From Bacteroidota bacterium (GTDB lineage: Bacteria > Bacteroidota > Rhodothermia > Rhodothermales > UBA10348): a DNA stretch of 64,000 nt. The notes under the pieces are model-generated. The model searched no databases and had not been told where the DNA came from. It saw only the letters and a list, made by a program, of their open reading frames with translations. A program made the translations under genes and the position numbers. The stretch lies in the NCBI GenBank assembly GCA_022567305.1, contig JADFHF010000002.1, positions 1 through 64,000 of the forward strand, in the 5' to 3' direction. Shown piece by piece: positions 13,154 through 47,577 of the stretch (its first letter is position 1; each line of letters opens with the position of its first letter).

Positions 13154-13271
13154 GCAGGGGAAAAATGCACGAGCAAGGATCTGACGGGTAAGAGATCCTC
13201 AGTTAAAAAAGAACAGAATAGGAAAACCCGGAACGAGTTTTTTGGAAATACGGACTAATTGTAAAATCCGG

Positions 13272-13541
13272 CTAAGAGGTGTTTTGGACCCGCTGACGAA
13301 ACATCACGGGCACCAAATGCCCATCGGGTGAACCAATCTGAACCAATTCCCATTGAGGGTCATACGAATTGATCATAGATCGCAACCGATCAATCCGTTG
13401 TTCCGGATCGGTGCCACCGAGTGTCCAGTCGAAGGATTTTACACGGTAATTCATCAAGCGGGTTTTACCGTTGACGGTGACTTCGACTTCCACGGTTTGA
13501 TCCTCGCCCAGCGAGGGGACGTGTATGCAGATCTCATTCAT
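13272..13541 (-). CDS. Conserved small hypothetical protein
   Basis: 89-aa ORF in line with flanking minus-strand genes; no recognised domain. Confidence 0.5.
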   Translation of the reverse strand: MNEICIHVPSLGEDQTVEVEVTVNGKTRLMNYRVKSFDWTLGGTDPEQRIDRLRSMINSYDPQWELVQIGSPDGHLVPVMFRQRVQNTS

Positions 13542-13577
13542 AAATCCGATCGTGTATTACACGCGTTTTATCCGCTA

Positions 13578-14279
13578 CTAGTCTGCGTGATGAATGTAAT
13601 GACTCTGAATGAAGTTCTCGGTAACCACGTGGCCGTCGAACAGGTGGATGACCCTCCGAGAATACTCAGCATCGGCAGGCGAGTGCGTAACCATGACGAT
13701 GGTTGTTCCTGCCTCGTTCATCTGAGTCAGCAGATTCATGACCTCCTCGCTATTCGTAGAATCCAGGTTTCCTGTGGGCTCGTCAGCGAGGATCAGTTTT
13801 GGTCCAGCGACTACAGAGCGGGCAATTGCGACGCGTTGCTGCTGGCCACCAGAAAGTTGCTGCGGAAAATGTTTCTGCCGGTGCACGATCTGAACGGATT
13901 CAAGGGCGGCGTTAACTCGAGCCTTTCGCTCGTCCGCCCCCATGCCCAGGTAGAGCAAAGGTAGCTCGACATTTTCATATACCGTCAGTTCATCGATCAA
14001 GTTAAAGCTCTGAAAAACGAAGCCAATGTTGCCTTTTCTGAGTTGGGCTCGCTGTCTCTCAGACAGATTGGATACTTCCGTACCCATAAATTCGAACTCA
14101 CCGGCAGTCGGATTGTCGAGTAGTCCGAGGATATTCAACAGAGTCGATTTACCGCAGCCCGATGGACCCATCACGGAGACGAATTCGCCTGCCTTGATCT
14201 CGATATTAACATTGTTCAGCGCAGTCGTTTCGACTTCTTCAGCGATATACGACTTTTTGAGGTTATTCGTTTTAATCAT
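13578..14279 (-). CDS. ABC transporter ATP-binding protein (MacB-like)
   Basis: [35 protein letters not shown]. Confidence 0.93.
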
Positions 14280-25403: not shown

Positions 25404-25509
25404 GGCCAGATAAACAGGAATACACATCTAGATTTCTTGAGTGGGTCTCAAAAGTCGGGGGTTGAACTCAGGCGACAAGATACACAGCACGACCAAGGCG
25501 ACAAAAAAA

Positions 25510-25607
25510 GGGCAAGCTTACCGTATCGCATCGCTACAACCTTCTACCGCTGCTGCCTTCCGGCCCTGACGGAGTTCAAAGGGAGCAGACCGCACGGGAC
25601 TTGCCCT
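25510..25607 (-). ncRNA. ffs: Bacterial small SRP RNA (4.5S-type)
   Basis: Minus strand contains GTCAGGGCCGGAAGGCAGCAGC, the SRP RNA apical core; ends pair AGGGCAAG...CTTGCCC. Confidence 0.92.
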
Positions 25608-25647
25608 AGCTGCCTCCAAACGACGGGTTATCAGGCAGGTTCCACGG

Positions 25648-35188: not shown

Positions 35189-35261
35189 GCCGCGTTCGTC
35201 TAGGGGTCCAGGACGCCGGCCTCTCACGCCGGCAACACGGGTTCAAATCCCGTACGCGGTA
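35189..35261 (+). tRNA. tRNA-Glu (anticodon CTC)
   Basis: Acceptor GCCGCGT/ACGCGGT, anticodon stem CCGGC-CTCTCAC-GCCGG, T-arm ACGGG-TTCAAAT-CCCGT, discriminator A; CCA not encoded. Confidence 0.93.
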
Positions 35262-35358
35262 CAAAGTCAAGCCCTTTCTGTAACTCCCTGCCTGGCAGGG
35301 GATTGCGGGGAGAGTTATTCTTCTTATCTGGAGCACGTCCCTATAGGAGGCCTACAAA
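35245..35358 (+). repeat. tRNA-Glu 3'-end att-like repeat, copy A (in the intact tRNA) plus downstream structured segment
   Basis: AAATCCCGTACGCGGTAC at 35245-35262, then AAAGTCAAGCCCTTTCTGTAACTCCCTGCCTGGCAGGGGATTGCGGGGAGAG...GTCCCTATAGG. Confidence 0.9.
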
Positions 35359-35430
35359 GTGCTTAATAAAATTCGTAGTTAATCGGAATGGACGGCTAGT
35401 ATGTCCCGGTAGGGAGTCAGGATCTTTCGG

Positions 35431-37587
35431 TCAGTTCATCAGAACGAACTCAATTGATCGATCCGCTGCTTTTCCAGTCACCTCGTCTAATAGCCGAACG
35501 GTGATAAGCATTCTATCTGCTGTGTCCCATTCGGCTAGATCCAACATCACATACTCGCGAGTTGTCAATGAGTAACCCGTATGGCTGGTAGACACAGCCG
35601 TTGTCACCAACTCTCGTCTACCGAGTAGACCTGCGATACCCTCCCGTTTTTCGTCATATGAGACTTCGTACGAAACGGTGTAATGTGTCTGGTCATCGTC
35701 GCCGAAGACCAAATTATACACTTCAAAATAAAGGGCCAGATTCGTTTGCGGAGTAATCGCTTTACGGACGTAAACGGGCGCGCGAAAGCCCTGCTCATCA
35801 CGGACCAAGTCCGTTTCTTCAATTGACCCAGCCACGAGCGGAACAAGATCGCTCATCACAAGCGTTCCGGGGCTCGGGTCGAGCGCCACCAGCGAATCCA
35901 CCCTTTGTACACCTCGTCTGATGAAAGAGTGGTCCTCCGGGTCCTCCACATTTCCTGTCTCATGCACCATGTATTGATCCCACTGAAGGGCGAGGTGATA
36001 GAGGCCGGTATCTCCTCTTACAATTGTCGTGTAAACTGGTGAATCTGCATCGTCTGAGTAGTTATCGGAAAGTCTGTACTTTCCCCGTGTAATCTTGCGT
36101 GTCTGGAAACCCATCTCCTGCTGCACGGCCGACAGGAGTATCATGTGCTCGTATGAAAGTCGAGGGTGTTTTCTCAGAATTTCTAGATGAACACCCGGCG
36201 GGGGCACTAACTCGCCGGCGGGTACAGCCCAGTAGACTTCAGTTCGCGTTGTGCCATCTGCATCTAAGAACCGAGCTAGTCGTAGTTCGACGGGAAGCGA
36301 AGGCGCGGTTGAGAATCCTGATGAGCTCCTCGGCACTTCCGCGCGGCGCTTCGTTTCGAGCTGCCGCTCTACGACTTTTGTTTCCTGCATGAGCATGCTT
36401 ACCACAATGAAGATCGGAATGGGCGGCCCTCGACCTTCTACAGCATCGTCTACACGCAAGTATGTCGCCGTGTATCCCGGATCGAGCCATGCGAGTTCAT
36501 ACAAAAATTCGCGCATAAGTTGGATCGACAAACTAGCGCGAAAACGGCCGCGATCCGATGAAGAGAAGCCACGTCTTAAGACATTGGGCATCATTCCCTC
36601 GAGTCCTGCGTGTCTAAACGCCCCTCGCTCCCAGGCGAACAGGTAACGCGCTGCACGTCCGAGGTGCGAGTATGTCCAAAACTCATTTCGGGGGAGGAAC
36701 GAGACGCCCGCAAACTCGGCATCGGCCATAAGTGCTTTACGGCTGTTCAAGAAGTAGCTCCTGATCCGCTCAACCTGCGAAGGTGCGCCTAGTCGAACAT
36801 AGAGTTTGCCTCGATCATCGAAACCAGACGGGCTTTCTAGACTTGCATAGCTTGCCCCCGCCTCTGTCACTCTCTCAAGATGCTCCGCGACGCGTTCGTT
36901 CCAAACCGACGCTGGCAGCGGGTCCTGACTGTGCCACCAATTTACTAGCAGTGCCCCCGCACCGCTGTCATACACCATCTTATCCCGCGGCTCTCCAAGC
37001 GTATCTACAACGCGTCGCCGCAACTCATCGGGCAAGAGGAATATCATCTGCCGCACATGCAGATCCACAACATTCTTTTCATGCGGCCTCAGTTTGCTGC
37101 CAACGACGTCCAGCATACCCAAATAGGCGTCGATCGCTCTGACGTATTCCGACTGGACGCGCTCTTTAAATACTGATCTTGTGTAAGCGTCAGCCAGTAG
37201 CACATCGAACGCCTCCTCTGATTCCAGCGCCCGGATCCCACCGCGCCATACATCCAACGCTTGCGAATGCTCGCTCCTTGCAGAATGCGCTTTTCCTAAC
37301 CAAAAGACTGCCGCTCCCTGAATATCGAGGCGAAAACCTGGGTTTTCCTTAACGATCGCACTGAACTGCTGAACGGCTTCGTCGTAGCGGGCAGCCTCAA
37401 AAGCCTCGCGCCCGGCTCGGAAACGGGACGTCAGTTCAGGTTGCGCCCATGCTTGTACTGAACTAAATAGCAACAATAACAGGAACGCAAAAGTCTTAAC
37501 GTACCTCAAGACATGGGTAAACTGAGAGAAAACCATAGCCCTGCAAGAGATAAAAAGCCCTTGAGAAACGTTGCGCCAACTGGTCAC
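35431..37587 (-). CDS. GWxTD-domain-like/TPR exported protein (cassette 1 cargo)
   Basis: Signal-like FAFLLLLLFSSVQAWAQ; TPR-like N-terminus; FDDRGKLYVRLGAPSQVERIRSY and NEFWTYSHLGRAARYLF resemble GWxTD-domain proteins. Confidence 0.6.
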   Translation of the reverse strand: MTSWRNVSQGLFISCRAMVFSQFTHVLRYVKTFAFLLLLLFSSVQAWAQPELTSRFRAGREAFEAARYDEAVQQFSAIVKENPGFRLDIQGAAVFWLGKAHSARSEHSQALDVWRGGIRALESEEAFDVLLADAYTRSVFKERVQSEYVRAIDAYLGMLDVVGSKLRPHEKNVVDLHVRQMIFLLPDELRRRVVDTLGEPRDKMVYDSGAGALLVNWWHSQDPLPASVWNERVAEHLERVTEAGASYASLESPSGFDDRGKLYVRLGAPSQVERIRSYFLNSRKALMADAEFAGVSFLPRNEFWTYSHLGRAARYLFAWERGAFRHAGLEGMMPNVLRRGFSSSDRGRFRASLSIQLMREFLYELAWLDPGYTATYLRVDDAVEGRGPPIPIFIVVSMLMQETKVVERQLETKRRAEVPRSSSGFSTAPSLPVELRLARFLDADGTTRTEVYWAVPAGELVPPPGVHLEILRKHPRLSYEHMILLSAVQQEMGFQTRKITRGKYRLSDNYSDDADSPVYTTIVRGDTGLYHLALQWDQYMVHETGNVEDPEDHSFIRRGVQRVDSLVALDPSPGTLVMSDLVPLVAGSIEETDLVRDEQGFRAPVYVRKAITPQTNLALYFEVYNLVFGDDDQTHYTVSYEVSYDEKREGIAGLLGRRELVTTAVSTSHTGYSLTTREYVMLDLAEWDTADRMLITVRLLDEVTGKAADRSIEFVLMN

Positions 37588-37768
37588 TATCCAATGGCAA
37601 AGCTGGAAATACTGTCTTTGAAATCATCATGCCACTGTCACCCCCAGTAGTTGGCAGAACCCCACTGGGGCAAAACGCATCCGCGGTATCATACTATCCT
37701 ATAAGCAGCATTATCTCAAAGAAGTTCCATACGAGAATAGGTGGAGAAACTGAATGATATACGTGCTC

Positions 37769-37880
37769 AAATCCCGTACGCGGTACAAAGTCAAGCCTTT
37801 TCTGTAACTCCCTGCCTGGCAGGGAAATACGGGGAGGGCTTTTCTTTTGTGTGTTGTCGTTTCCCTATAGGTTCCCCAAA
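37769..37880 (+). repeat. att-like repeat, copy B
   Basis: AAATCCCGTACGCGGTAC 37769-37786 identical to copy A; downstream CAAAGTCAAGCCTTTTCTGTAACTCCCTGCCTGGCAGGGAAATACGGGGAGGGCTTTTCTTTT also conserved. Confidence 0.93.
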
Positions 37881-37942
37881 ACGTAGCGTAGCAAAAACGA
37901 GAGTGGATGAGAGTTTCAAGCCTCGTAGAAGTGGAGAAGCTA

Positions 37943-40204
37943 TTAACCGCCGATGGTAGGTGGTGCCGAACGGATTGCGGATCTGCGGACGCGCATTAGC
38001 AGAAAGGCCATGACCAAAGCCAGGCTAAAGGAAAGCACCATCACCAGGGTAGACTGGGTCATTAGCCAGGCGGTTTCCGTGGAAAAGATGACAAATACCA
38101 CTAGCACACCGAACCACAGCCACTTGCTGAGAAGGTACTTGCGGAAGCGTATAAGCAGGAAGGCGATGACCAATACCGCGCCAACGTAAAGCGAAGTCTC
38201 CTTGATAGACTTGACCAGTACACCGGTTCTACTCTCTGGAAGTGCAAATGCGACAACGGAATCCCCGATGGGGGTACCTGACTTGCCGTGCCCTCCAGCG
38301 GCGATTACAACGAATTGCTTTCCATTCTCGCTCAGACGGTAGGTCATCGGCGTCGCCTGCCCGCCTGCGGGTAAACTCCCTTTCCAAAGTACCTCTCCGG
38401 TCTCCACGTCGAAGGCGCGCAGAAAGTTGTCCATCGCTGCGCCAATAAAGACCAGCCCTCCTCCAGTCACTATCGGACCGCCCAGGTTCGGAGTTCCGGT
38501 GATCAGGCCGAGGGGAACATCCCACGTCACCTCGCCAGTGGCCAGCTCCACCGCCAGGATGGTTCCCCAGGGCGGCTTAGTACAAGGCGGTCCCCAAGGC
38601 GAAACGAGGGGGGCCCGGCTCATACCGACAGGTGTGCCCAATTGCGGGGCGAATTCGGTATTTTTCGGACGCTTGGCCCTCTCCGCCTCATAGCGTTCGC
38701 GCGGAATGAGTTTTGTGATGAATGGAAGGTGGGTCATGTTTAACACCACCAATCCTCGCTCAGGCTCAAAGGCGACGCTTCCCCAGTTGGTCCCTCCGAT
38801 AATCCCCGGAGACTGGATGGTTCCGTCGAAGCCGGGCGGCGTGAAGATACCCTCGTACCGGTACCGCTCAATCAACTCGCGGCATTTTCCCCGATCCCAG
38901 AAGGTGAGGCCCCAGGCGTCGTTCGGGGTGAGTGTCAGCGGGGCGAGTGGGGGCGGAACGGTGGGGAAAGGTTGCGTGGGCCAGCTTTGCTCTCCCGGCA
39001 CCGTCGACCGGGGCACGGGCCGTTCTTCCACCGGAAAGATCGGCTTCCCGGTGTCCCGGTGGAGGAGAAAGAGGAACCCCATCTTGGTAGCTTGCGCCAC
39101 GGCGGGGATCTCCAGTCCGTCTTTTCGTACCGTGACCAGCGTAGGCTGGGCGGGCAGGTCGTAGTCCCAGAGGTTATGGTGGACTATCTGGTAGTCCCAG
39201 ACGACCTCCCCGGTGGTACCGTTGAGCGCAACGACCGAATCCGCATAGCGGTTGCTCCCTAGCCGCTCACCGCCGTAGTAGTCCGGGCTTGGACTGCTGG
39301 TCGGCACGAAAACAAGGTTCCGCTCGGGGTCCGCAGATATAGGCGCCCAGACGTTGGCCGCCCCCGTCCGTTCGGCGCTGTCTCCTTCCCAGGTCTCACG
39401 GGCTGGATCGTCAGGATCGCGCGGGATGGGATCAAAGAACCAGCGCAGCTCACCCGTGCGGGCGTCAAAAGCGCGCACGAGACCGCGCTCCAGCGTCACG
39501 GCCGAGTTGTCGCCAATGGCTGACCCCACCACCACCAGGTCGCCAATCACAGCGGGCGGGGAGGTCACGCCATAATGCCTTCTGTTTACCGTGTAGTCCC
39601 CTAAGTCAACCCCTTCGGAGAGATCGATCTGCCCGTTCAGACCAAAATCTGCGCAGGGCTTTCCGGTTAAAGAATCCACGGCAATCAACCGGGCGTCGCG
39701 GGTTGCGATAAAAATTCTGCGGTGGCAGGGCTCGCCTGTTTCACGCTGCTCATCCAGCCAGGTTGTGACGCCACGCGAGGCAATTTCAGACCGGTGGACG
39801 TCTCGATCGATCCCGGGGTCATAGGTCCAGAGCTCGGCCCCTGTCTCAGGGTCCAGCGAAATAATCCGGCTGTATGCCGTGCTGACGTAGAGCACACCAT
39901 CCACCAGGATCGGCGTGGCCTGGAAGGAGGTAGGCTGTCTGCCATCGGAGCCATCGGAAAAGTCGCCGGTATGGTATTCCCAGGCGATCTCCAACAGGGA
40001 TACATTTTCTCGGTTGATCTGGTCGACGGGAGAATAGCGTGTGCCTCCATGATCCCGACCGTAGACTGGCCAATCCGCGATGGAACCATCCGTAAATATG
40101 ATTTTCCCCGCACGGACGAAGTCAGTCGCAGCGATCACGACAATGATAACCAGACCGACCAAGGCAATTAAAACGTAAAGGCGATGGGTTGCACTCCATT
40201 TCAT
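37943..40204 (-). CDS. Pyrroloquinoline-quinone-dependent dehydrogenase, membrane-bound (cassette 2 cargo)
   Basis: DWPVYGRDHGGTRYSPVDQINRENV..LEIAWEYHTGD; FDARTGELRWFFDPIP; repeated PQQ propeller motifs; LGGPIVTGGGLVFIGAAMDNFLRAFDVETGEVLWK. Start 40204 (MKWSATHR) preferred. Confidence 0.92.
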   Translation of the reverse strand: MKWSATHRLYVLIALVGLVIIVVIAATDFVRAGKIIFTDGSIADWPVYGRDHGGTRYSPVDQINRENVSLLEIAWEYHTGDFSDGSDGRQPTSFQATPILVDGVLYVSTAYSRIISLDPETGAELWTYDPGIDRDVHRSEIASRGVTTWLDEQRETGEPCHRRIFIATRDARLIAVDSLTGKPCADFGLNGQIDLSEGVDLGDYTVNRRHYGVTSPPAVIGDLVVVGSAIGDNSAVTLERGLVRAFDARTGELRWFFDPIPRDPDDPARETWEGDSAERTGAANVWAPISADPERNLVFVPTSSPSPDYYGGERLGSNRYADSVVALNGTTGEVVWDYQIVHHNLWDYDLPAQPTLVTVRKDGLEIPAVAQATKMGFLFLLHRDTGKPIFPVEERPVPRSTVPGEQSWPTQPFPTVPPPLAPLTLTPNDAWGLTFWDRGKCRELIERYRYEGIFTPPGFDGTIQSPGIIGGTNWGSVAFEPERGLVVLNMTHLPFITKLIPRERYEAERAKRPKNTEFAPQLGTPVGMSRAPLVSPWGPPCTKPPWGTILAVELATGEVTWDVPLGLITGTPNLGGPIVTGGGLVFIGAAMDNFLRAFDVETGEVLWKGSLPAGGQATPMTYRLSENGKQFVVIAAGGHGKSGTPIGDSVVAFALPESRTGVLVKSIKETSLYVGAVLVIAFLLIRFRKYLLSKWLWFGVLVVFVIFSTETAWLMTQSTLVMVLSFSLALVMAFLLMRVRRSAIRSAPPTIGG

Positions 40205-40287
40205 GATTCTCCCCTTATATAGTGTGTTGATATGGACAGGTTGGGCCACCTAATAGCCATTCTATGGACAACCCGTCATCAATTCTT

Positions 40288-40425
40288 CAACGCAGGTACA
40301 ATCCCAAGTTGGTACAAGCGTAACAACCACAACTACTTAATCCAATATAGAGATACGACAACTCGGTCCCTGTCTGGGTATCACCAACCGGAGTTTCACG
40401 AATCTATTGATATTCACGCCATTGA
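40288..40425. repeat. Conserved cassette leader element, copy C'
   Basis: GGTACAAGCGTAACAACCACAACTACTTAATCCAAT...CGGTCCCTGTCTGGGTATCACCAACCGG; aligns with elements at 45.69 and 47.20 kb. Confidence 0.6.
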
Positions 40426-40439
40426 TCTGTTGGCTGGAC

Positions 40440-40497
40440 AAATCCCGTACGCGGTACCAAAACAGCCGACCCGGCTTCTTCCGGGTGGGCTGTTTTG
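40440..40497 (+). repeat. att-like repeat, copy C, with a different terminator hairpin
   Basis: AAATCCCGTACGCGGTAC 40440-40457 followed by CAAAACAGCCGACCCGGCTTCTTCCGGGTGGGCTGTTTTGA hairpin. Confidence 0.9.
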
Positions 40498-40609
40498 ATC
40501 TCGAGGTGCACGGGAGTTGAAGCTGTAGGGTTCACACGAGCGAGCAACCCGGACGGGAGTCAGACTGATCGTACTAGCGAGCGACTGTTGAGGCGCGATA
40601 GCGCCGAAA

Positions 40610-40723
40610 AAATCCCGTACGCGGTACAAAGTCAAGCCCTTTCTGTAACTCCCTGCGAGGCAGGGGATTGCGGGGAGGGCTTTTCTTTTGTTCAGAGCCG
40701 ATTCCCCGTAATCTCCCCAAAGC
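40610..40723 (+). repeat. att-like repeat, copy D
   Basis: AAATCCCGTACGCGGTAC 40610-40627 and near-identical downstream segment (TGCGAGGCAGG variant) to GGGCTTTTCTTTT. Confidence 0.93.
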
Positions 40724-40825
40724 GCCCTCACTATTATAGCGATAAATCCTATTAATATGCTTATCTCGACCCAGCGAATACCTCAATATTACCTCTCCCG
40801 AAGCTTCAGGCAGTTGTGCGAGCCC

Positions 40826-40862
40826 GCAACATCCGCTTGACATTGGTGGCCATAAGCGTGTT
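40826..40862 (-). repeat. Hairpin direct repeat H1 (attC-like?), copy 1
   Basis: + strand GCAACATCCGCTTGACATTGGTGGCCATAAGCGTGTT; matches 43996-44036; lies just 3' of the higA-like stop on the minus strand. Confidence 0.55.
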
Positions 40863-40880
40863 CTAGGAAACAAAAAAAAA

Positions 40881-41189
40881 TCACACAGATGATGCAGGAC
40901 GAATTTTTTTCAGCACTCTGGCTGATGGCGCCCGCATCGCGTGCCATAGATCCCAATTTCGCTGACCATTCAACCAAAACTCAGCCGACGTGCCAAGCAG
41001 AGCTGACAATCGCAAAGCTGTATCGGGAGTGATTCCTCTCTTTCCGTTGATTATCTCGTTCACGCGTGGATACGAGGTATGGATCGACTCAGCCAGTTGT
41101 ACTTGAGTCATGCCCATTGGCTTTAGAAATTCCTCAAGCAGCATTTCACCCGGATGAGTAGGCGGACGATTTGATGGAAGACGTGCCAT
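40881..41189 (-). CDS. higA: HigA family addiction-module antitoxin
   Basis: RPPTHPGEMLLEEFLKPMGMTQVQLAESIHTSYPRVNEIINGKRGITPDTALRLSALLGTSAEFWLNGQ. Confidence 0.95.
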   Translation of the reverse strand: MARLPSNRPPTHPGEMLLEEFLKPMGMTQVQLAESIHTSYPRVNEIINGKRGITPDTALRLSALLGTSAEFWLNGQRNWDLWHAMRAPSARVLKKIRPASSV

Positions 41190-41191
41190 GG

Positions 41192-41485
41192 CTAGTGATA
41201 GTCTGTAATTTCAACCTGATCCGATCCGCTCTCTGTCCAGACAAAGCAAACCCGGAATTGGTCATTTATGCGGATGCTATGCTGGCCGCTTCGATTTCCT
41301 TTTAGTCGTTCGAGCCGGTTTCCTGGTGGTGATTGAAGATCATCCAGCAGTTCGGCTTGATTTAACTGATCAAGTTTTCGGGTCGCCACTCTCCAGAGTG
41401 AAGCTGGACATGCCTTGCTCGCACGCTTGGACCTTTTGCCATCGAAGACGTCCTCCGTTGCTTGGTTAGAAAATGAAACGATCAT
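41192..41485 (-). CDS. higB: HigB/RelE-type toxin (type II TA)
   Basis: MIVSFSNQATEDVFDGKRSKRA...LDQLNQAELLDDLQSPPGNRLERLKGNRSGQHSIRINDQFRVCFVW; adjacent to higA. Confidence 0.95.
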   Translation of the reverse strand: MIVSFSNQATEDVFDGKRSKRASKACPASLWRVATRKLDQLNQAELLDDLQSPPGNRLERLKGNRSGQHSIRINDQFRVCFVWTESGSDQVEITDYH

Positions 41486-41658
41486 ATATAACGCATATCG
41501 TTATATATAATACAATCGTTTATCTTCTTAGTTCCGTAGAACGGCCGGGCAATCTGTGGCGAGGATTTCGCGACCTTTCCAGAACAAGTAGTGATCTGAA
41601 GTCGAAACCGGCTGTCCGAGCCCACAGAATTGCTTGGTTATGCGGCCTAAACACCCGA

Positions 41659-42264
41659 TCATCTCACCCGCTTTGCCAGCTGTGTCACCTGCTGCTCGGC
41701 TCCGCCTTCACGCTCCGTGTCGAGCTCGATTCTCTCCTCGTCTGTGATATCCTCAACCACATTCCGTGGCTGAAGAAGATCCCAGTCTTCACTCGTCACG
41801 ATGGCCTCTATGTGCTCGAGACGCTGAAGAATCCGTTCTTCCATCCTGGAAGACGTACCCCCTGTGGCGACTTCGGAAAGGGCCTGGTTCAGTACCTGCG
41901 TCAACTCCTCTTTCGTTAACCCCGTTTCGCTGTTTCGCAGCAACTCTCTGACCTTCTGTTCCTCCCAGGCTGGGCTCCCGAGGCCGAAGATGCCGAAGAC
42001 ACGCATGGCGTGGAGGCAGAGTCCGCCACCCCACCCGAGCAAGACCAGCAGCGGGCCGAAAACAGCTTCAGGGCCGGCAGCCAAGAAAAAAGTCGTAAGC
42101 ATGCCGGCGTTAATAACAATGTAAGAGATCAGATGGCCATAGAAGGTTTTTAAATCCTTTACTCGTGCTCGTGCTTCTTGCTCGATCATGACACCCCTCC
42201 AGGATTCTTGAATTTTCCTGAACAATATGCCCTGAGAGTCGAACTGTTTCCTCCGGTGGCGCAC
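41659..42264 (-). CDS. 2TM-domain-containing protein
   Basis: ARARVKDLKTFYGHLISYIVINAGMLTTFFLAAG...GPLLVLLGWGGGLCLHAMRVFGIFGLGSPAWEEQKVRELL, typical 2TM domain pattern. ORF start uncertain; MIEQEARARV at ~42189 likely. Confidence 0.75.
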   Translation of the reverse strand: MRHRRKQFDSQGILFRKIQESWRGVMIEQEARARVKDLKTFYGHLISYIVINAGMLTTFFLAAGPEAVFGPLLVLLGWGGGLCLHAMRVFGIFGLGSPAWEEQKVRELLRNSETGLTKEELTQVLNQALSEVATGGTSSRMEERILQRLEHIEAIVTSEDWDLLQPRNVVEDITDEERIELDTEREGGAEQQVTQLAKRVR

Positions 42265-42401
42265 GATTCAGGCTGCATAACGACTGGCGGATCTGCGGAA
42301 TGACCCGAGACGCGCGAGGGCCGGTTGGCGTGCCGAAAACGAGCCCGTGGTTGAAAACGGCCATCCGCATCATGCGCGGATCATCTGCGAGTCTCATATA
42401 A

Positions 42402-42610
42402 AAAGATTCGACCGCAGTCGGAGCACATATGGGCTTTCATCTGACCTTTCTCCTTGTACGCGGCTGACCAGAATCCTTTCCTGGCTTAAAACGGAGCATA
42501 AGACATTGCTACATGCCCTATTCCGTCCTGAATGAAATCCGGATGAGTTGCATCGATCATTCTGATCTCGTTCAGACTACCATCGCAATCGGGACAAGCT
42601 TTCAGTATTT
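42402..42610 (-). pseudogene. Small zinc-ribbon-like ORF interrupted by an in-frame TAA
   Basis: Reverse complement reads LKACPDCDGSLNEIRMIDATHPDFIQDGIGHVAMSYAPF*ARKGFWSAAYKEKGQMKAHMCSDCGRIFLY; CxxC pairs on both sides of the stop (TAA at 42486-42488). Confidence 0.5.
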
Positions 42611-43043
42611 CTTTCAGTCATGACGCCGGCAAACGGTTTTCAGATTGACGGAAGCGAAGCCGTACGTCACATGCGTTCTTACGCCGAGTTTCTGCTTGCG
42701 TTAATATTACCGTACAGCGAGCGTGTGACGATCTTTTCGTACACCGCCTTTCGATTCGTATTCAGTTCAATCTTTTGCAGGGCGTATTGCTGGATGACCA
42801 AGAGAGGTATCACGATATCTTCTCGAATCGCAATCGAATTCCTCGATACTGGTTCTTCTTCCATCAATTCCGTGTACCCGGAACCGAAAACCAACCCCCA
42901 CCTCCGCCCTGCAGGCAAGGATGCTGATCCGTCAGCAAATTGGTGTTTGCGCACGATTTGTTTTGGTGTTTGCTCTAGCGTCATGCACGCCGGCTATTGC
43001 GCCATTCAGCCAGTAGGCATACCTGTACGCCACGGAGCTCAAA

Positions 43044-43508
43044 GTGGAATCGCTCAAGCTGATGGAGCAGGCTGAAACCCCTTTTCAGGAAAATCTGAGT
43101 AGGGTCGACGAGCTGAGGACGGAGCTGGACAAAGCGTACGAATTCGCAAAGGCAGGCCTCGCAATGACCATCTTCTACGAAATAGAAGACATCGGCCGCT
43201 TTGCTCGCGGGCAGCAGTTCGCGTCTTACGCCCGGCTCGTGAAGGGACAAAAGTCCTCTGCCGTTAAACGGCTCGGAACGCAAAGTGCAAAGATGGGCAA
43301 TCGACATTTGAAATGGGCCTTCTCAGAGGCGTTGGTGCTCTACATGCGCGAAAGTGAGCGAGCCAAGAAATATGTCGCCCGGCTCGAAGCCAAGCACGGC
43401 AAGGGAAAGGCGATCTCGATTCTGTCTGCCAAAATCGGACGTGCCATCTATTTCATGCTGCGCAGGCGGGAAGCATTCGATGAGGAACGCTTTTTCGCCG
43501 CGGCGTAG
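43044..43508 (+). pseudogene. IS110-family transposase remnant (C-terminal domain only)
   Basis: MTIFYEIEDIGRFARGQQFASYARLVKGQKSSAVKRLGTQSAKMGNRHLKWAFSEALVLYMRES..., typical IS110 Tnp C-terminal part; N-terminal DEDD/RuvC-like part missing. Confidence 0.8.
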
Positions 43509-43590
43509 AGTGTGGACGCGGTGCCGGTCGAGCCGGACGCATAACTGTAGCTGTACGGGTCGACTCTGACGACACAGATCCTTGTGCATT

Positions 43591-43640
43591 GGGCTACGAG
43601 CCCGGAACAGGACTGCCTTGGAGCAAGGAGGTGCGCCTCC
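43591..43640 (+). ncRNA. Three consecutive short hairpins 3' of the IS110 remnant, possible structured RNA
   Basis: GGGCT-ACG-AGCCC (43591-43603), CCTTG-GAG-CAAGG (43616-43628), GGAGG-TGCG-CCTCC (43627-43640). Confidence 0.35.
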
Positions 43641-43995
43641 ATGCTGACTATGCGCACTTGAATGGACGCCGGCTCCATGCCCACCAATACTAACGAACTT
43701 GATGCCTGTCGCGCGCGCATCAATGCTGCTGACTTACCGGCGAAACCAGATTGATAACGGGAGCGCCCTCGGGGGAAGCCAACCCTTTGAGCGGACGCCG
43801 GTGAGAACGGGACTAATTCTAGGGGCGCATCGTACATCCTTCGATGCCCCTGAGCGAAAAAGGACAGCGCAGACCCTCAAAACGTGTATGGTACAGCCGC
43901 TGGCTGTAACCGAAAAAAGAACACTCCCGCAATACCGGCAACGATGAAGGGCCAGACGATCAAGAATCCGGCGGGTGTGCCACCCGCCATGGGAT

Positions 43996-44036
43996 GCTAC
44001 GCCCGCTTGACTTTGGGGGCCATAAACGGGTTATGC
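43996..44036 (-). repeat. Hairpin direct repeat H1 (attC-like?), copy 2
   Basis: + strand GCTACGCCCGCTTGACTTTGGGGGCCATAAACGGGTTATGC; same pattern as 40826-40862 with stem substitutions that keep pairing. Confidence 0.55.
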
Positions 44037-44151
44037 GGCGACCATTCCTTTACTTCAGCGGCGAAGCCGCGCTTCGTAAACCGTGTGGTAGCCGCACTCA
44101 ACATGATTTCACAAGCATCTGGACTCCAATGATTTATCCGCCATGTGTACT

Positions 44152-45480
44152 TTACCGTTTATCCACCACAACCCGCCCCTCTTGGATCACCAACCGGATT
44201 GTTCGCACATCACTGATTTGTTCCCAGGGTTGTCCGTCAATCAGCAAAAGGTCAGCGATTTTGTCTGACTCAATCGTTCCTAAGTCCTTATCAGCTTGCA
44301 GCGCAATAGCGGCATCTCGGGTTGCAGCAAGAAGCGCTTCTTCAGGTGAGAGTCCGGATTGCACCAGTAGTTCTAGTTCGCGATGGACACCGCTACCGAA
44401 GGACATGTGGGGGCCTGAAGTGTCGGTACCAGAACCTATCCGAACCCCACCATTCTTTGCAGCCTTCGTGTTGTCCATTAATAGTATTATCGCCGGGTCT
44501 TCAGGTCCCAACTTTGCTTCAACAACTGCAAGAGTAGGAATAAACGTGACATTCTTTTCCCTCAATAGCTCAATCGTTTCGGAATCTAAATGACTTCCGT
44601 AAGTAACACCGTGTTCTATTGTGTTCGCACCGGCCTGCACCGCATCGCGGACCTCTTCCAATGAACCCGTATGTACAGCAACCCAAAGTCCCCGCTTATG
44701 GGCCACGTCAATGACGGCTTGTAAAACATCAAGAGACAGACGCGGGAGTCGCCCTTCCCTCCCCCCGTATACAGCTTTAATACCATCGACTCCTTCTCGG
44801 GCTAATCTCTCTACCTCAGCCGCTGCTTCCTCCGGGTCAGTAACCTGGCGTGCTGCACCTTTAATCAGCCATGGGTTACCCTTCAAGTGTGTTGCGACGG
44901 GGTGGCCACCTGGTGCGGTGAATATCGGCCCGACGCAGTAGACACGGGGACCTGCAAGTTCACCCGATGCAATTTGCTTCTTAAGCCTAAGGATAACATC
45001 CTTTACATCTCCTACTGAACGGATGGTGGTCACTCCAGCTTCAAGAAGTGCTCTGCGTACCGCAGGACGCTGGCGGACATAATCCCATATCATCAGCGGA
45101 AATGACAGCCCCGCGTTCTCTTTGCTGGGTGCACCAAAGTGGACATGCAGATCGATCAGCCCCGGCATGATAGATAGGCCCGTGGCGTCGATCACGGTTG
45201 CGTCGGAAGGAATTTCACACTCATTTCCAACGCAGACAATACGCTCTTTGTTAATGACGATTGTTGAACTCTTATAAGGTGCGCTTCCGGTGCCGTCGAA
45301 CAGAGTTCCACCACGAATAACCAGTGTGCCCTCATTGATAGATTGCCCTTTGTATAAATCATGGTTGTACGCCATGAACAAGAGGATAGCCGCAACGAGA
45401 ATAAGACCAATACCACCGAGCAAGACGCGGAGTAGACAGCCGAATTTCCCGCGTTTTTGTCTACTCGTGTCAGTTGTCAT
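44152..45480 (-). CDS. Amidohydrolase family protein (imidazolonepropionase-like), membrane-anchored (cassette 4 cargo)
   Basis: IDATGLSIMPGLIDLHVHFGAPS, VAVHTGSLEEVRDAVQAGANTIEHGV, GSGTDTSG; N-terminal TM. Confidence 0.92.
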   Translation of the reverse strand: MTTDTSRQKRGKFGCLLRVLLGGIGLILVAAILLFMAYNHDLYKGQSINEGTLVIRGGTLFDGTGSAPYKSSTIVINKERIVCVGNECEIPSDATVIDATGLSIMPGLIDLHVHFGAPSKENAGLSFPLMIWDYVRQRPAVRRALLEAGVTTIRSVGDVKDVILRLKKQIASGELAGPRVYCVGPIFTAPGGHPVATHLKGNPWLIKGAARQVTDPEEAAAEVERLAREGVDGIKAVYGGREGRLPRLSLDVLQAVIDVAHKRGLWVAVHTGSLEEVRDAVQAGANTIEHGVTYGSHLDSETIELLREKNVTFIPTLAVVEAKLGPEDPAIILLMDNTKAAKNGGVRIGSGTDTSGPHMSFGSGVHRELELLVQSGLSPEEALLAATRDAAIALQADKDLGTIESDKIADLLLIDGQPWEQISDVRTIRLVIQEGRVVVDKR

Positions 45481-45691
45481 GATCTTTCACTTCTTTTGGC
45501 TGTGAATTTCACACTCTCACAGACTCCATAAAACCCTTTTCCAACACGCGGCCAGTCATGTTGAGTGGGGATAACTCGTTTATAGATGCAATGTAGATGG
45601 AATAATAGACGGACTTTTTTCCTTTACTTATATTTTAGTATCAAAAACCATTCTTCATTCCTACACAAATCATAAGACTTGAACAGCCACA

Positions 45692-45850
45692 TAACAGGTA
45701 ATCTACGGACCGAGCGCACCGATGATGCCACGAGTCATACGATCCTGATTTCGTACAAGTGTAACCGCCACAATAGCCTGGTGCAATGGAAGGAGGTAAC
45801 TATTCGGTTTCAATCTGGGTATCACCGATCGGCATATCACGGGTCCGCGT
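45692..45850. repeat. Conserved cassette leader element, copy E'
   Basis: AGGTAATCTACGGACCG...GATCCTGATTTCGTACAAGTGTAACCGCCACAATAGCCTGGTGCAATGGAAGG...GGTTTCAATCTGGGTATCACCGATCGGCATATCAC. Confidence 0.8.
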
Positions 45851-45913
45851 ATTGCACCGGCCGCTTATTATAACTCCAATGATGGACCATTCAATGACCT
45901 AGAGGTCGAACTC

Positions 45914-46028
45914 AAATCCCGTACGCGGTACAAAGCCAAGCCCTTTCTATAACTCCCTGCCTGGCAAGGGATTACAGAGATGGCTTTTCTTGTGTATGAC
46001 GGTCGCCCACTATACGCCCCCCAAACTG
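45914..46028 (+). repeat. att-like repeat, copy E
   Basis: AAATCCCGTACGCGGTAC 45914-45931; diverged downstream segment CAAAGCCAAGCCCTTTCTATAACTCCCTGCCTGGCAAGGGATTACAGAGATGGCTTTTCTTG. Confidence 0.92.
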
Positions 46029-46219
46029 AGCCTAGAAAAATAGAAAGTAGAAAAGGGCCTAATGCCTGTAAATGCCTCAGATGCTATCGACTTCGGACCT
46101 CTAGTCACGGCATTACGGATTTACGATTCTGCTGCGCGACCAAGATGTACAAATCGCTGCTCGTACTCAATTCCCTAATGATCGCACTACCAGCAATGGC
46201 TTGTTACGAAGCCTGCTTC

Positions 46220-47182
46220 CTAAGGCTGGCACATGTCAGATAGGACTCGGATCGGAGTTCGGTAGAGATCTCCTGGCGGCCGTATTGAATCCGGCGAGGG
46301 ACCAACGATGCCAGGGCGTTCCGACGTGTAGTAGAGGTAATCACCGGCTATCGCTGGGGCGAATTCGGCGAATCGAGAGTTCACTGGATCGGGAAGGGCG
46401 CGAGGGCGGCTCCACCCCTTCTCGATTCGGCATGCGACCATCAGGTCGGAGGATCCGTCCTCACTCGTCGCGGACACGACCATGAGGGTCCCGTCGGGAC
46501 TGATCAAGGGATTGGATGCGTCTGGAGCTCCTTCTAGAGTCAGAAGCTCCGGATCTGACCATCCACTCGGACTCGGCGATGAGATGTAGATCCCGAGGGT
46601 TCTGTTCCGTGTGGAGCTGAAGGCCACCGTCCCGTCGGTAGCGAGCGAGAGGAAATAGTCGGTGGAGTCCGAGTTGATCGGCTCCCCAATCTCCTGGAGT
46701 TCGCTCCAACCCGAGTGAGTGCGCTCTACAAACCAGATGCTGAGCGATTCATTGCCGGAGATCTCGCGGACTCGAGGAGTCGCGAAAAAAAGTCGCCGCC
46801 CGTCTGAGCTTAGAAACGGGTCGATCGCCGTAATCCCCTGAGTAGGTGGGAACGGGCGCGACTCAGACCAACCACTGTCCGTGTGAACGGAATAAAACAG
46901 TCCGATCGAGGAGCGGTCAGAAGGGGTACGATTGAAATAAATTGTGTCGCCATCGGGTGAGAAAGCGCTGGCGAACTCCGGTAGCTCTGTGGAAATGACG
47001 CCGGGGCCAACCACCTCGACCTCGATTCCACCGGTTCCGTCCGCTGCAGTGGATTCGCGATTGGCGGTCCTGTCGCAGCCGACCAGAGCCAGCAATGCTA
47101 TCCAGACGATTCGGTTTGGCGCTCGAGTTCTCGTCACTTCTTTCCATTCCCTCTCAGTTACTTCCGAAGAAAATCCGGCCAA
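46220..47182 (-). CDS. PD40/TolB-like beta-propeller lipoprotein (cassette 5 cargo)
   Basis: IVWIALLALVGCDRTANRE lipobox; FASAFSPDGDTIYFNRT, DPFLSSDGRRLFFAT, NPLISPDGTLMVVSAT. Confidence 0.8.
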   Translation of the reverse strand: MAGFSSEVTEREWKEVTRTRAPNRIVWIALLALVGCDRTANRESTAADGTGGIEVEVVGPGVISTELPEFASAFSPDGDTIYFNRTPSDRSSIGLFYSVHTDSGWSESRPFPPTQGITAIDPFLSSDGRRLFFATPRVREISGNESLSIWFVERTHSGWSELQEIGEPINSDSTDYFLSLATDGTVAFSSTRNRTLGIYISSPSPSGWSDPELLTLEGAPDASNPLISPDGTLMVVSATSEDGSSDLMVACRIEKGWSRPRALPDPVNSRFAEFAPAIAGDYLYYTSERPGIVGPSPDSIRPPGDLYRTPIRVLSDMCQP

Positions 47183-47202
47183 ACCGGTTCCTTCGGGGCT
47201 TC

Positions 47203-47370
47203 CTAGTAGGTAATCTACGGACCGCTCGCTCTCAAGTCTTCAAAACGTGTACGATCCTGAATTCGTACACATGCAACCGCCACAAAAGCTTGGTGCAATA
47301 GAGAAAAGTGACAATTGGGTTCGAGTTTGGGTATCACCAATTATCAGATCCCCGGTCTGCATATCACACG
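47203..47370. repeat. Conserved cassette leader element, copy F'
   Basis: AGGTAATCTACGGACCG...GATCCTGAATTCGTACACATGCAACCGCCACAAAAGCTTGGTGCAATAG...GGGTTCGAGTTTGGGTATCACCAATTATC...GCATATCAC. Confidence 0.8.
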
Positions 47371-47457
47371 CGGTAATGGTGACATGATCGGCATATCACG
47401 CAGACCGCATATCATGACTCTAGTGATATCCGGTCCAGTGATCCGATAGTCTCACAC

Positions 47458-47577
47458 AAATCCCGTTCGCGGTACAAAGTCAGCCCATTCCCGTAAGTCC
47501 CCGCTTGGCAGGGGATTACGAAGAGGGCTTTTCCTGTTTCTGTTATGCACCCCCAATAGGTTCCCAAAAATATGCTC
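47458..47577 (+). repeat. att-like repeat, copy F (most diverged)
   Basis: AAATCCCGTTCGCGGTAC 47458-47475 (one mismatch), then CAAAGTCAGCCCATTCCCGTAAGTCCCCGCTTGGCAGGGGATTACGAAGAGGGCTTTTCC. Confidence 0.88.

Follow-up and report, generated by a model that had tools for sequence, protein, structure and literature searches.

The segment that follows the 3' end of a tRNA-Glu gene on contig C93 of genome G000 is, in our reading, the left end of small integrative units stacked in tandem at this gene. Most of these units appear to be integrase-less mini-integrons, each equipped with a replacement terminator, and we put the probability of this reading at roughly two in three. The sequence studied here, which we call the window, is a stretch of 64,000 nt (G000:C93:1-64000) from a 3.76-Mb genome in 115 contigs. 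Integrons are usually viewed as one fixed platform with one integrase; in the array described below the attI-promoter module seems to have been multiplied without an integrase and packed into tandem tRNA units, with cargo genes receiving a promoter of their own.

Repeated tRNA-Glu ends and the units between them

A search of the window located six tRNA-Glu 3'-end cores (AATCCCGTACGCGGTAC) within 35246-47475, every one on the + strand, the first (A) starting at 35246 inside the tRNA gene itself. As in other tRNA-targeted elements, the tRNA 3' end stands as a direct repeat at both boundaries and the tRNA is restored. Cores and cargo are arranged as follows:

35189..35262, + strand: tRNA-Glu(CTC), the single tRNA gene in the window; its last ~18 bp (AAATCCCGTACGCGGTAC) are the repeated exchange core A
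35431..37587, - strand: 718-aa open reading frame, cargo of unit 1, no Pfam match
37770..37786, + strand: core B
37943..40249, - strand: PQQ-dependent dehydrogenase cassette gene of unit 2 (PF01011, 6e-232)
40441..40457, + strand: core C, followed by a simple native-type terminator
40458..40610, + strand: native-type tRNA-Glu downstream block with terminator; its counterpart lies directly 3' of tRNA-Glu in G005 (77.5% over 249 bp)
40611..40627, + strand: core D
40881..41485, - strand: HigA/HigB-type toxin-antitoxin pair, unit 3
43044-43508: IS110-type transposase piece, unit 3
44152..45480, - strand: amidohydrolase gene, unit 3 (PF01979)
45915..45931, + strand: core E
46112..47180, - strand: PD40 beta-propeller cassette of unit 4 with attC-like 3' end; an 88% identical copy on contig C23 is without unit ends
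47459..47475, + strand: core F, with one mismatch

With the exception of the transposase piece, all cargo genes lie on the - strand and point toward the hairpin that follows each of the cores A, B, D, E and F. Unit 3 further carries a 2TM protein; toxin-antitoxin pairs of the HigBA type are a usual kind of integron cassette. No tyrosine recombinase is encoded on contig C93, and an integrase inside the element was found in the related element of genome G018 alone, a 7.2-kb insert which encodes a 388-aa tyrosine recombinase, a small HTH protein and cargo. Similarly, no recombinase for the tRNA-Glu core was identified in G000, where the closest relative of the G018 integrase is 31% identical and located elsewhere. 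An integrase on contig C102 was considered as recombinase of the array and rejected, being XerC/D-like, adjoining a tRNA-modification (IPP transferase) gene and not tied to the array.

The stretch between cores C and D departs from the remaining array. Core C retains the core, but its adjoining terminator is unrelated to the hairpin segment, and the same block (a native-type terminator, then a core) also occurs in G005, G018 and G019. A core downstream of a native-type terminator does not fit simple stepwise insertion. The block (~150 bp, 40458-40610) includes an inverted T-arm-like motif, GGGAGTTGAAGC.GTAGGGTTC, is conserved 3' of tRNA-Glu in several genera, and gives a spare landing core.

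Integron parts at the unit ends

The region upstream of cores C, E and F recurs elsewhere in G000, and its counterparts in relatives lie beside intact intI, where GTGATATG-type iterons (in several genomes), a promoter-like TTGCACCAAGCC...TTATACTT (likewise in several) and an attI ending GTTAT-C follow one another in this order. A profile of attI and Pc, built from 11 intI-adjacent regions of other genomes, matched the window at 45796-45691 on the - strand (7.8e-8), contig C74 twice (4.5e-9 and 4.7e-6), C53 (5e-6) and further regions on C64, C67, C22 and C8, while the reversed sequence gave zero matches. The integron-related features of the window are:

37858..37882, + strand: weak block TTTCCCTATAGGTTCCCCAAAA with two TCCC-A motifs 11-12 bp apart, putative arm-type binding sites
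37965..37990, - strand: attC-like 3' half CCGCAGATCCGCAATCCGTTC; the left-end conservation begins at its GTT
40249..40391, - strand: degenerate Pc-attI region of unit 2, recognised by homology to other copies and missed by the attI profile
42278..42298, - strand: attC-like 3' half CCGCAGATCCGCCAGTCGTTA, inside unit 3
45691..45796, - strand: Pc promoter and attI (GCTCGGTCCGTAGATTACCT then GTTATG) of unit 3, without intI (profile E=7.8e-8); GTGATATG iterons run on to ~45880
47208..47367, - strand: degenerate Pc-attI region and iterons of unit 4, with homology to E and other copies

No recognisable attI was found at the right end of unit 1. In unit 3 the sequence diverges past the GTT of attI, and a comparable boundary exists at the left end of units. 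The weaker block behind the hairpin, already remarked on in the initial annotation, is real in most copies, G018 included, and its TCCC-A repeats probably represent arm-type recombinase sites. Behind it, copies B, F, C111 and C74 have a further ~100 bp in common, which start at GTT or a degenerate counterpart; with anchors picked by eye, identity among them is 0.62-0.75 after the GTT vs 0.06-0.44 before it. In B and C111 this GTT closes an attC-like 3' half, a feature found 16 times in the loci of G000 vs once in the reversed control. The window yielded 3' halves alone and no complete attC pair; a complete pair is seen on C23. Because attI-Pc homology on one side of the cargo is joined by drops of identity at GTT on both sides, we read the array as composed of mini-integrons.

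Attention should be paid to what this reading includes. An attI and a Pc promoter are recognisable by homology, and no IntI is encoded in the window, beside attI or otherwise. The array resembles additive tRNA islands and contains integron parts, yet without intI it lacks a defining feature of a complete integron. Traces of IntI in G000 are confined to C8, where 67 codons remain, and C4, where a weaker match contains stops; the C8 trace (L203:6700-7380), an IntI C-terminus near an attI-like region, is the remnant of the genome's own integron. Intact IntI is present in 13 of 27 family genomes, most of them without the hairpin, and a tie between hairpin and IntI was dropped for want of a clean correlation.

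Two further associations of these modules were observed. At several places (L013:2950-3190, L064:7139-7364, L066:6279-6456 and L067:9124-9331) the attI-Pc-iteron module is joined to the opening ~20 codons of Ser/Thr kinase genes, the two meeting at GGCATGGGGAT or an equivalent sequence; these fusions may mark a hot spot of recombination or a second type of landing site. G005 and contig C53 have in common another type of right end, in which GTTTCGC/GCGAAAC-like repeats precede the core (L099:442, L013:141).

The strongest competitor is an ordinary additive island, in which unrelated integrase-bearing elements were inserted serially at tRNA-Glu and decayed, so that the shared ends would be no more than what is left of one type of element, and the attI homology would reflect incidental sharing of a promoter. 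Islands of this kind are a known pattern: fGI1 of Alteromonas is an additive flexible genomic island at a tRNA gene (PMC4119200), and in fGI-2 of Methylopumilus the last 20 nt of tRNA-Lys are found repeated (PMC10872708). Both share with our array a conserved tRNA target, successive gene cassettes and repeated tRNA 3' ends, and the integrase-bearing G018 element at tRNA-Glu, together with several degenerate ends, would agree with such an origin. The present units differ, however, in that their ends are defined: one bears a covarying hairpin, the opposite one an integron attI-Pc module; the word 'terminator' is absent from the main texts of both papers. Moreover, five boundaries of identical end design enclose cargo of one to few genes, and iterons, Pc and attI are collinear with intI-linked regions and accompanied by the GTT boundaries on both sides. 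We therefore regard the additive island as unlikely, though it deserves consideration before any other alternative.

The hairpin and its conserved pairing

From cores A, B, D, E and F the sequence runs on into a common segment (79-94% identity, E = 4e-29 to 1.5e-15), which bears out the initial annotation on the sharing among these five copies; the range to which it had assigned the repeat contains A and B alone. The consensus CAAAGTCAAGCC with at most one mismatch has 5 matches in the window vs 0.2 expected, and none of 100 shuffles reaches 5. The string formerly given as shared holds as such a consensus but not as an exact string, since A ends GGGGAGAGTTATTC and E and F diverge further. Likewise, the outer and inner inverted repeats described as nested are both present, but they are parts of one stem rather than separate structures: columns 24-38 pair with 58-72 and columns 40-46 with 50-56, giving ~22 bp with one mismatch and a 3-nt loop. 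The stem closes with AGGGCTT and is followed by the T-run TTCTTTT. The copies in the window, all given on the + strand, are:

35269..35317, +: hairpin A, left end of unit 1; -25.6 kcal/mol on +, -14.1 on -
37793..37841, +: hairpin B; -33.7 kcal/mol
40634..40682, +: hairpin D; -37.1 kcal/mol, the most stable among the five window copies
45938..45986, +: hairpin E; -21.6 on +, -26.6 on -
47482..47530, +: hairpin F, left end of a fifth unit; -23.2 on +, -25.0 on -

Folding z-scores on the + strand for A, B, D, E and F are -2.4, -5.3, -5.4, -2.2 and -2.1. Hairpins B, D, E and F are not preceded by a whole tRNA gene, and E and F, which sit at the 3' ends of - strand genes far from the tRNA, are more stable on the - strand; by these predicted energies sense-strand termination is not preserved uniformly. 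The far end of the fifth unit was not found.

Conservation of the pairing was examined in an alignment of 16 copies from five genomes (five genera), in which, with statistics inflated by relatedness among the copies, 92% of 351 cells are paired and 5 pairs have both sides changed. All five pairing measures exceed their shuffle means, four being reached by 0 of 500 shuffles and the fifth by 9 of 500, and paired cells are far more numerous than in slid controls. The copy on contig C22, for example, retains the inner stem despite largely different letters. On the tRNA-sense strand, G-U cells outnumber A-C cells by 74 to 10 (mean -28.9 vs -19.2 kcal/mol by strand), and the single departures from Watson-Crick pairing comprise 25 G-U vs 9 A-C. 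Absence of compensatory changes had been named beforehand as evidence against a functional structure; the doubly changed pairs speak to the contrary. Together with the T-run, the sense-strand G-U bias points to a function in RNA. A stable stem with a T-run on the sense strand (weaker on + in E and F), and signs of selection on the RNA strand, with G-U kept, A-C avoided and changes compensated, are features of rho-independent terminators, and support the view that the hairpin is an RNA terminator in shape.

A scan with consensus promoters and terminators performed no better than on shuffles and missed the hairpin copies; the Rfam search matched the tRNA alone, two sub-threshold miRNA matches at hairpins being meaningless; and the single pattern match in a viral collection, without core or tRNA, is attributed to chance.

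To follow the segment beyond the window, we used a covariance model of core and hairpin (R1). Among 114 genomes of the order, matches of at least 59 bits occur in G000 (12, counted on its genome contigs), G018 (2), G005 (2), G019 (1) and G022 (1); none was found in the other 109, and the remaining matches score ~50 bits or less. Those weaker matches that were inspected proved to be tRNA-Glu genes or copies of the core, followed by simple terminators unrelated to the hairpin. Five of the 12 strong G000 copies lie in the window, and one stands behind the second tRNA-Glu gene, tRNA-Glu(TTC), where contig C22 ends; C22, C53 and C102 are contigs that break close to copies of the core.

The initial annotation had left open whether the segment is the tRNA terminator, a structured recombination site, or both. 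In favour of a hairpin folded as single-stranded DNA and read by the recombinase itself, like the attC of integrons, one may cite that a long imperfect hairpin lies 3' of each cassette gene, that one strand folds better, and that integron parts are nearby. Flanks, however, are exchanged at the 18-bp core, outside the stem, and both C and C74_3416 are cores without a hairpin. Furthermore, the hairpin has neither a GTTRRRY box (nor the GTTRRRY/RYYYAAC pair) nor an internal crossover, R1 has no match in the integron-integrase contigs examined, separate attC-like halves exist, and the T-run and G-U bias suggest RNA. The recombination-site half of the earlier proposal is accordingly very improbable, while the terminator half agrees with stem, T-run, wobble bias and covariation. 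The remark that the repeat is longer than an att overlap needs finds its explanation here: the exchange core comprises ~18 bp, the hairpin segment being the element end rather than part of the overlap.

Origin of the hairpin and proposed stacking of the units

Relatives with an empty site indicate where the hairpin came from. In G009, a member of the genus of G018, the native terminator follows tRNA-Glu directly. In G018 the order is tRNA-Glu, hairpin, the 7.2 kb insert, then a second core and the native terminator (78% identity over 88 bp vs G009). As the native terminator of G018 now lies 7.2 kb away beyond the insert, the hairpin was evidently brought by the insert. Other native tRNA-Glu sites agree with this comparison, which had been proposed along with the first description of the repeat: they possess unrelated simple terminators, and the segment is not the ordinary tRNA terminator of the strain but is unit-borne and recurs in four other genera. 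That the segment is instead the tRNA-Glu terminator of the ancestor, which tandem duplication copied together with the tRNA end, would suit its position directly 3' of tRNA-Glu at A, C22, G018a and G022, but is largely contradicted, and the least probable of the alternatives, given these simple terminators, the displaced one in G018, the copies at D-type sites after a native-type terminator, and units with unrelated cargo and foreign ends.

With the segment as the left end of tandem integrative units, their history is best read as follows. A unit would insert into the 18-bp 3' end of tRNA-Glu, successive units stacking there, and each insertion would leave the native terminator beyond the insert; the hairpin and T-run of the unit would then allow the rebuilt tRNA-Glu transcript still to end, and in G000 they would also keep the tRNA apart from the cargo gene that converges on it. 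The order within most G000 units is hairpin and 3' flank, attC/GTT boundary, - strand cassette gene, attI, Pc promoter, iterons and the next core. The sequences themselves show that the hairpin came with the element, that its pairing is conserved with a sense-strand bias, that the native terminator of G018 was displaced, and that attI/Pc homology and GTT boundaries exist. From these we infer termination at the hairpin, past loading of cassettes by IntI, and a tyrosine recombinase that acts in trans to excise and integrate the units (the related G018 element encodes its own). A system of two recombinases, in which IntI loads cassettes into attI and a tRNA-Glu-specific tyrosine recombinase stacks and unstacks the units, with the spare terminator hairpin sparing tRNA-Glu, is a tentative extension to which we give somewhat less than even odds.

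Displacement of a tRNA terminator has a precedent in ICEKp1, whose insertion at tRNA-Asn moves the terminator to the far end of the element, and in which tRNA-proximal stem-loops attenuate tRNA-driven transcription, read-through driving the integrase gene (PMC13023037). Both systems combine a terminator displaced to the far end with a stem-loop structure at the tRNA-proximal end. Here, by contrast, one conserved hairpin with a T-run makes up the proximal module, and most G000 cargo genes are aimed at it. The hairpin suggests how cells tolerate repeated insertion behind a tRNA gene, namely by a replacement terminator that the insert supplies.

Integrons with a defective or absent integrase can be moved by other elements, for example as integron mobilization units, whose flanks are inverted repeats of the MITE type. 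Such units resemble ours in their attI, Pc, cassette with attC-like end, defective or absent intI and mobility by flanking sequences. They differ in that the flanks here are tRNA-Glu cores and a terminator, and that the units are stacked in tandem, most with an attI-Pc of their own.

The hairpin also provides a sequence handle for locating similar arrays. In G018 (L100:5820-6230, 13260-13640), iterons and an attI-like GTTATAC stand directly behind the hairpin and read into + strand genes, a layout opposite to that of G000. Elsewhere in the window, a small SRP RNA is found at 25506-25613 on the - strand (Rfam RF04183, 92.7 bits).
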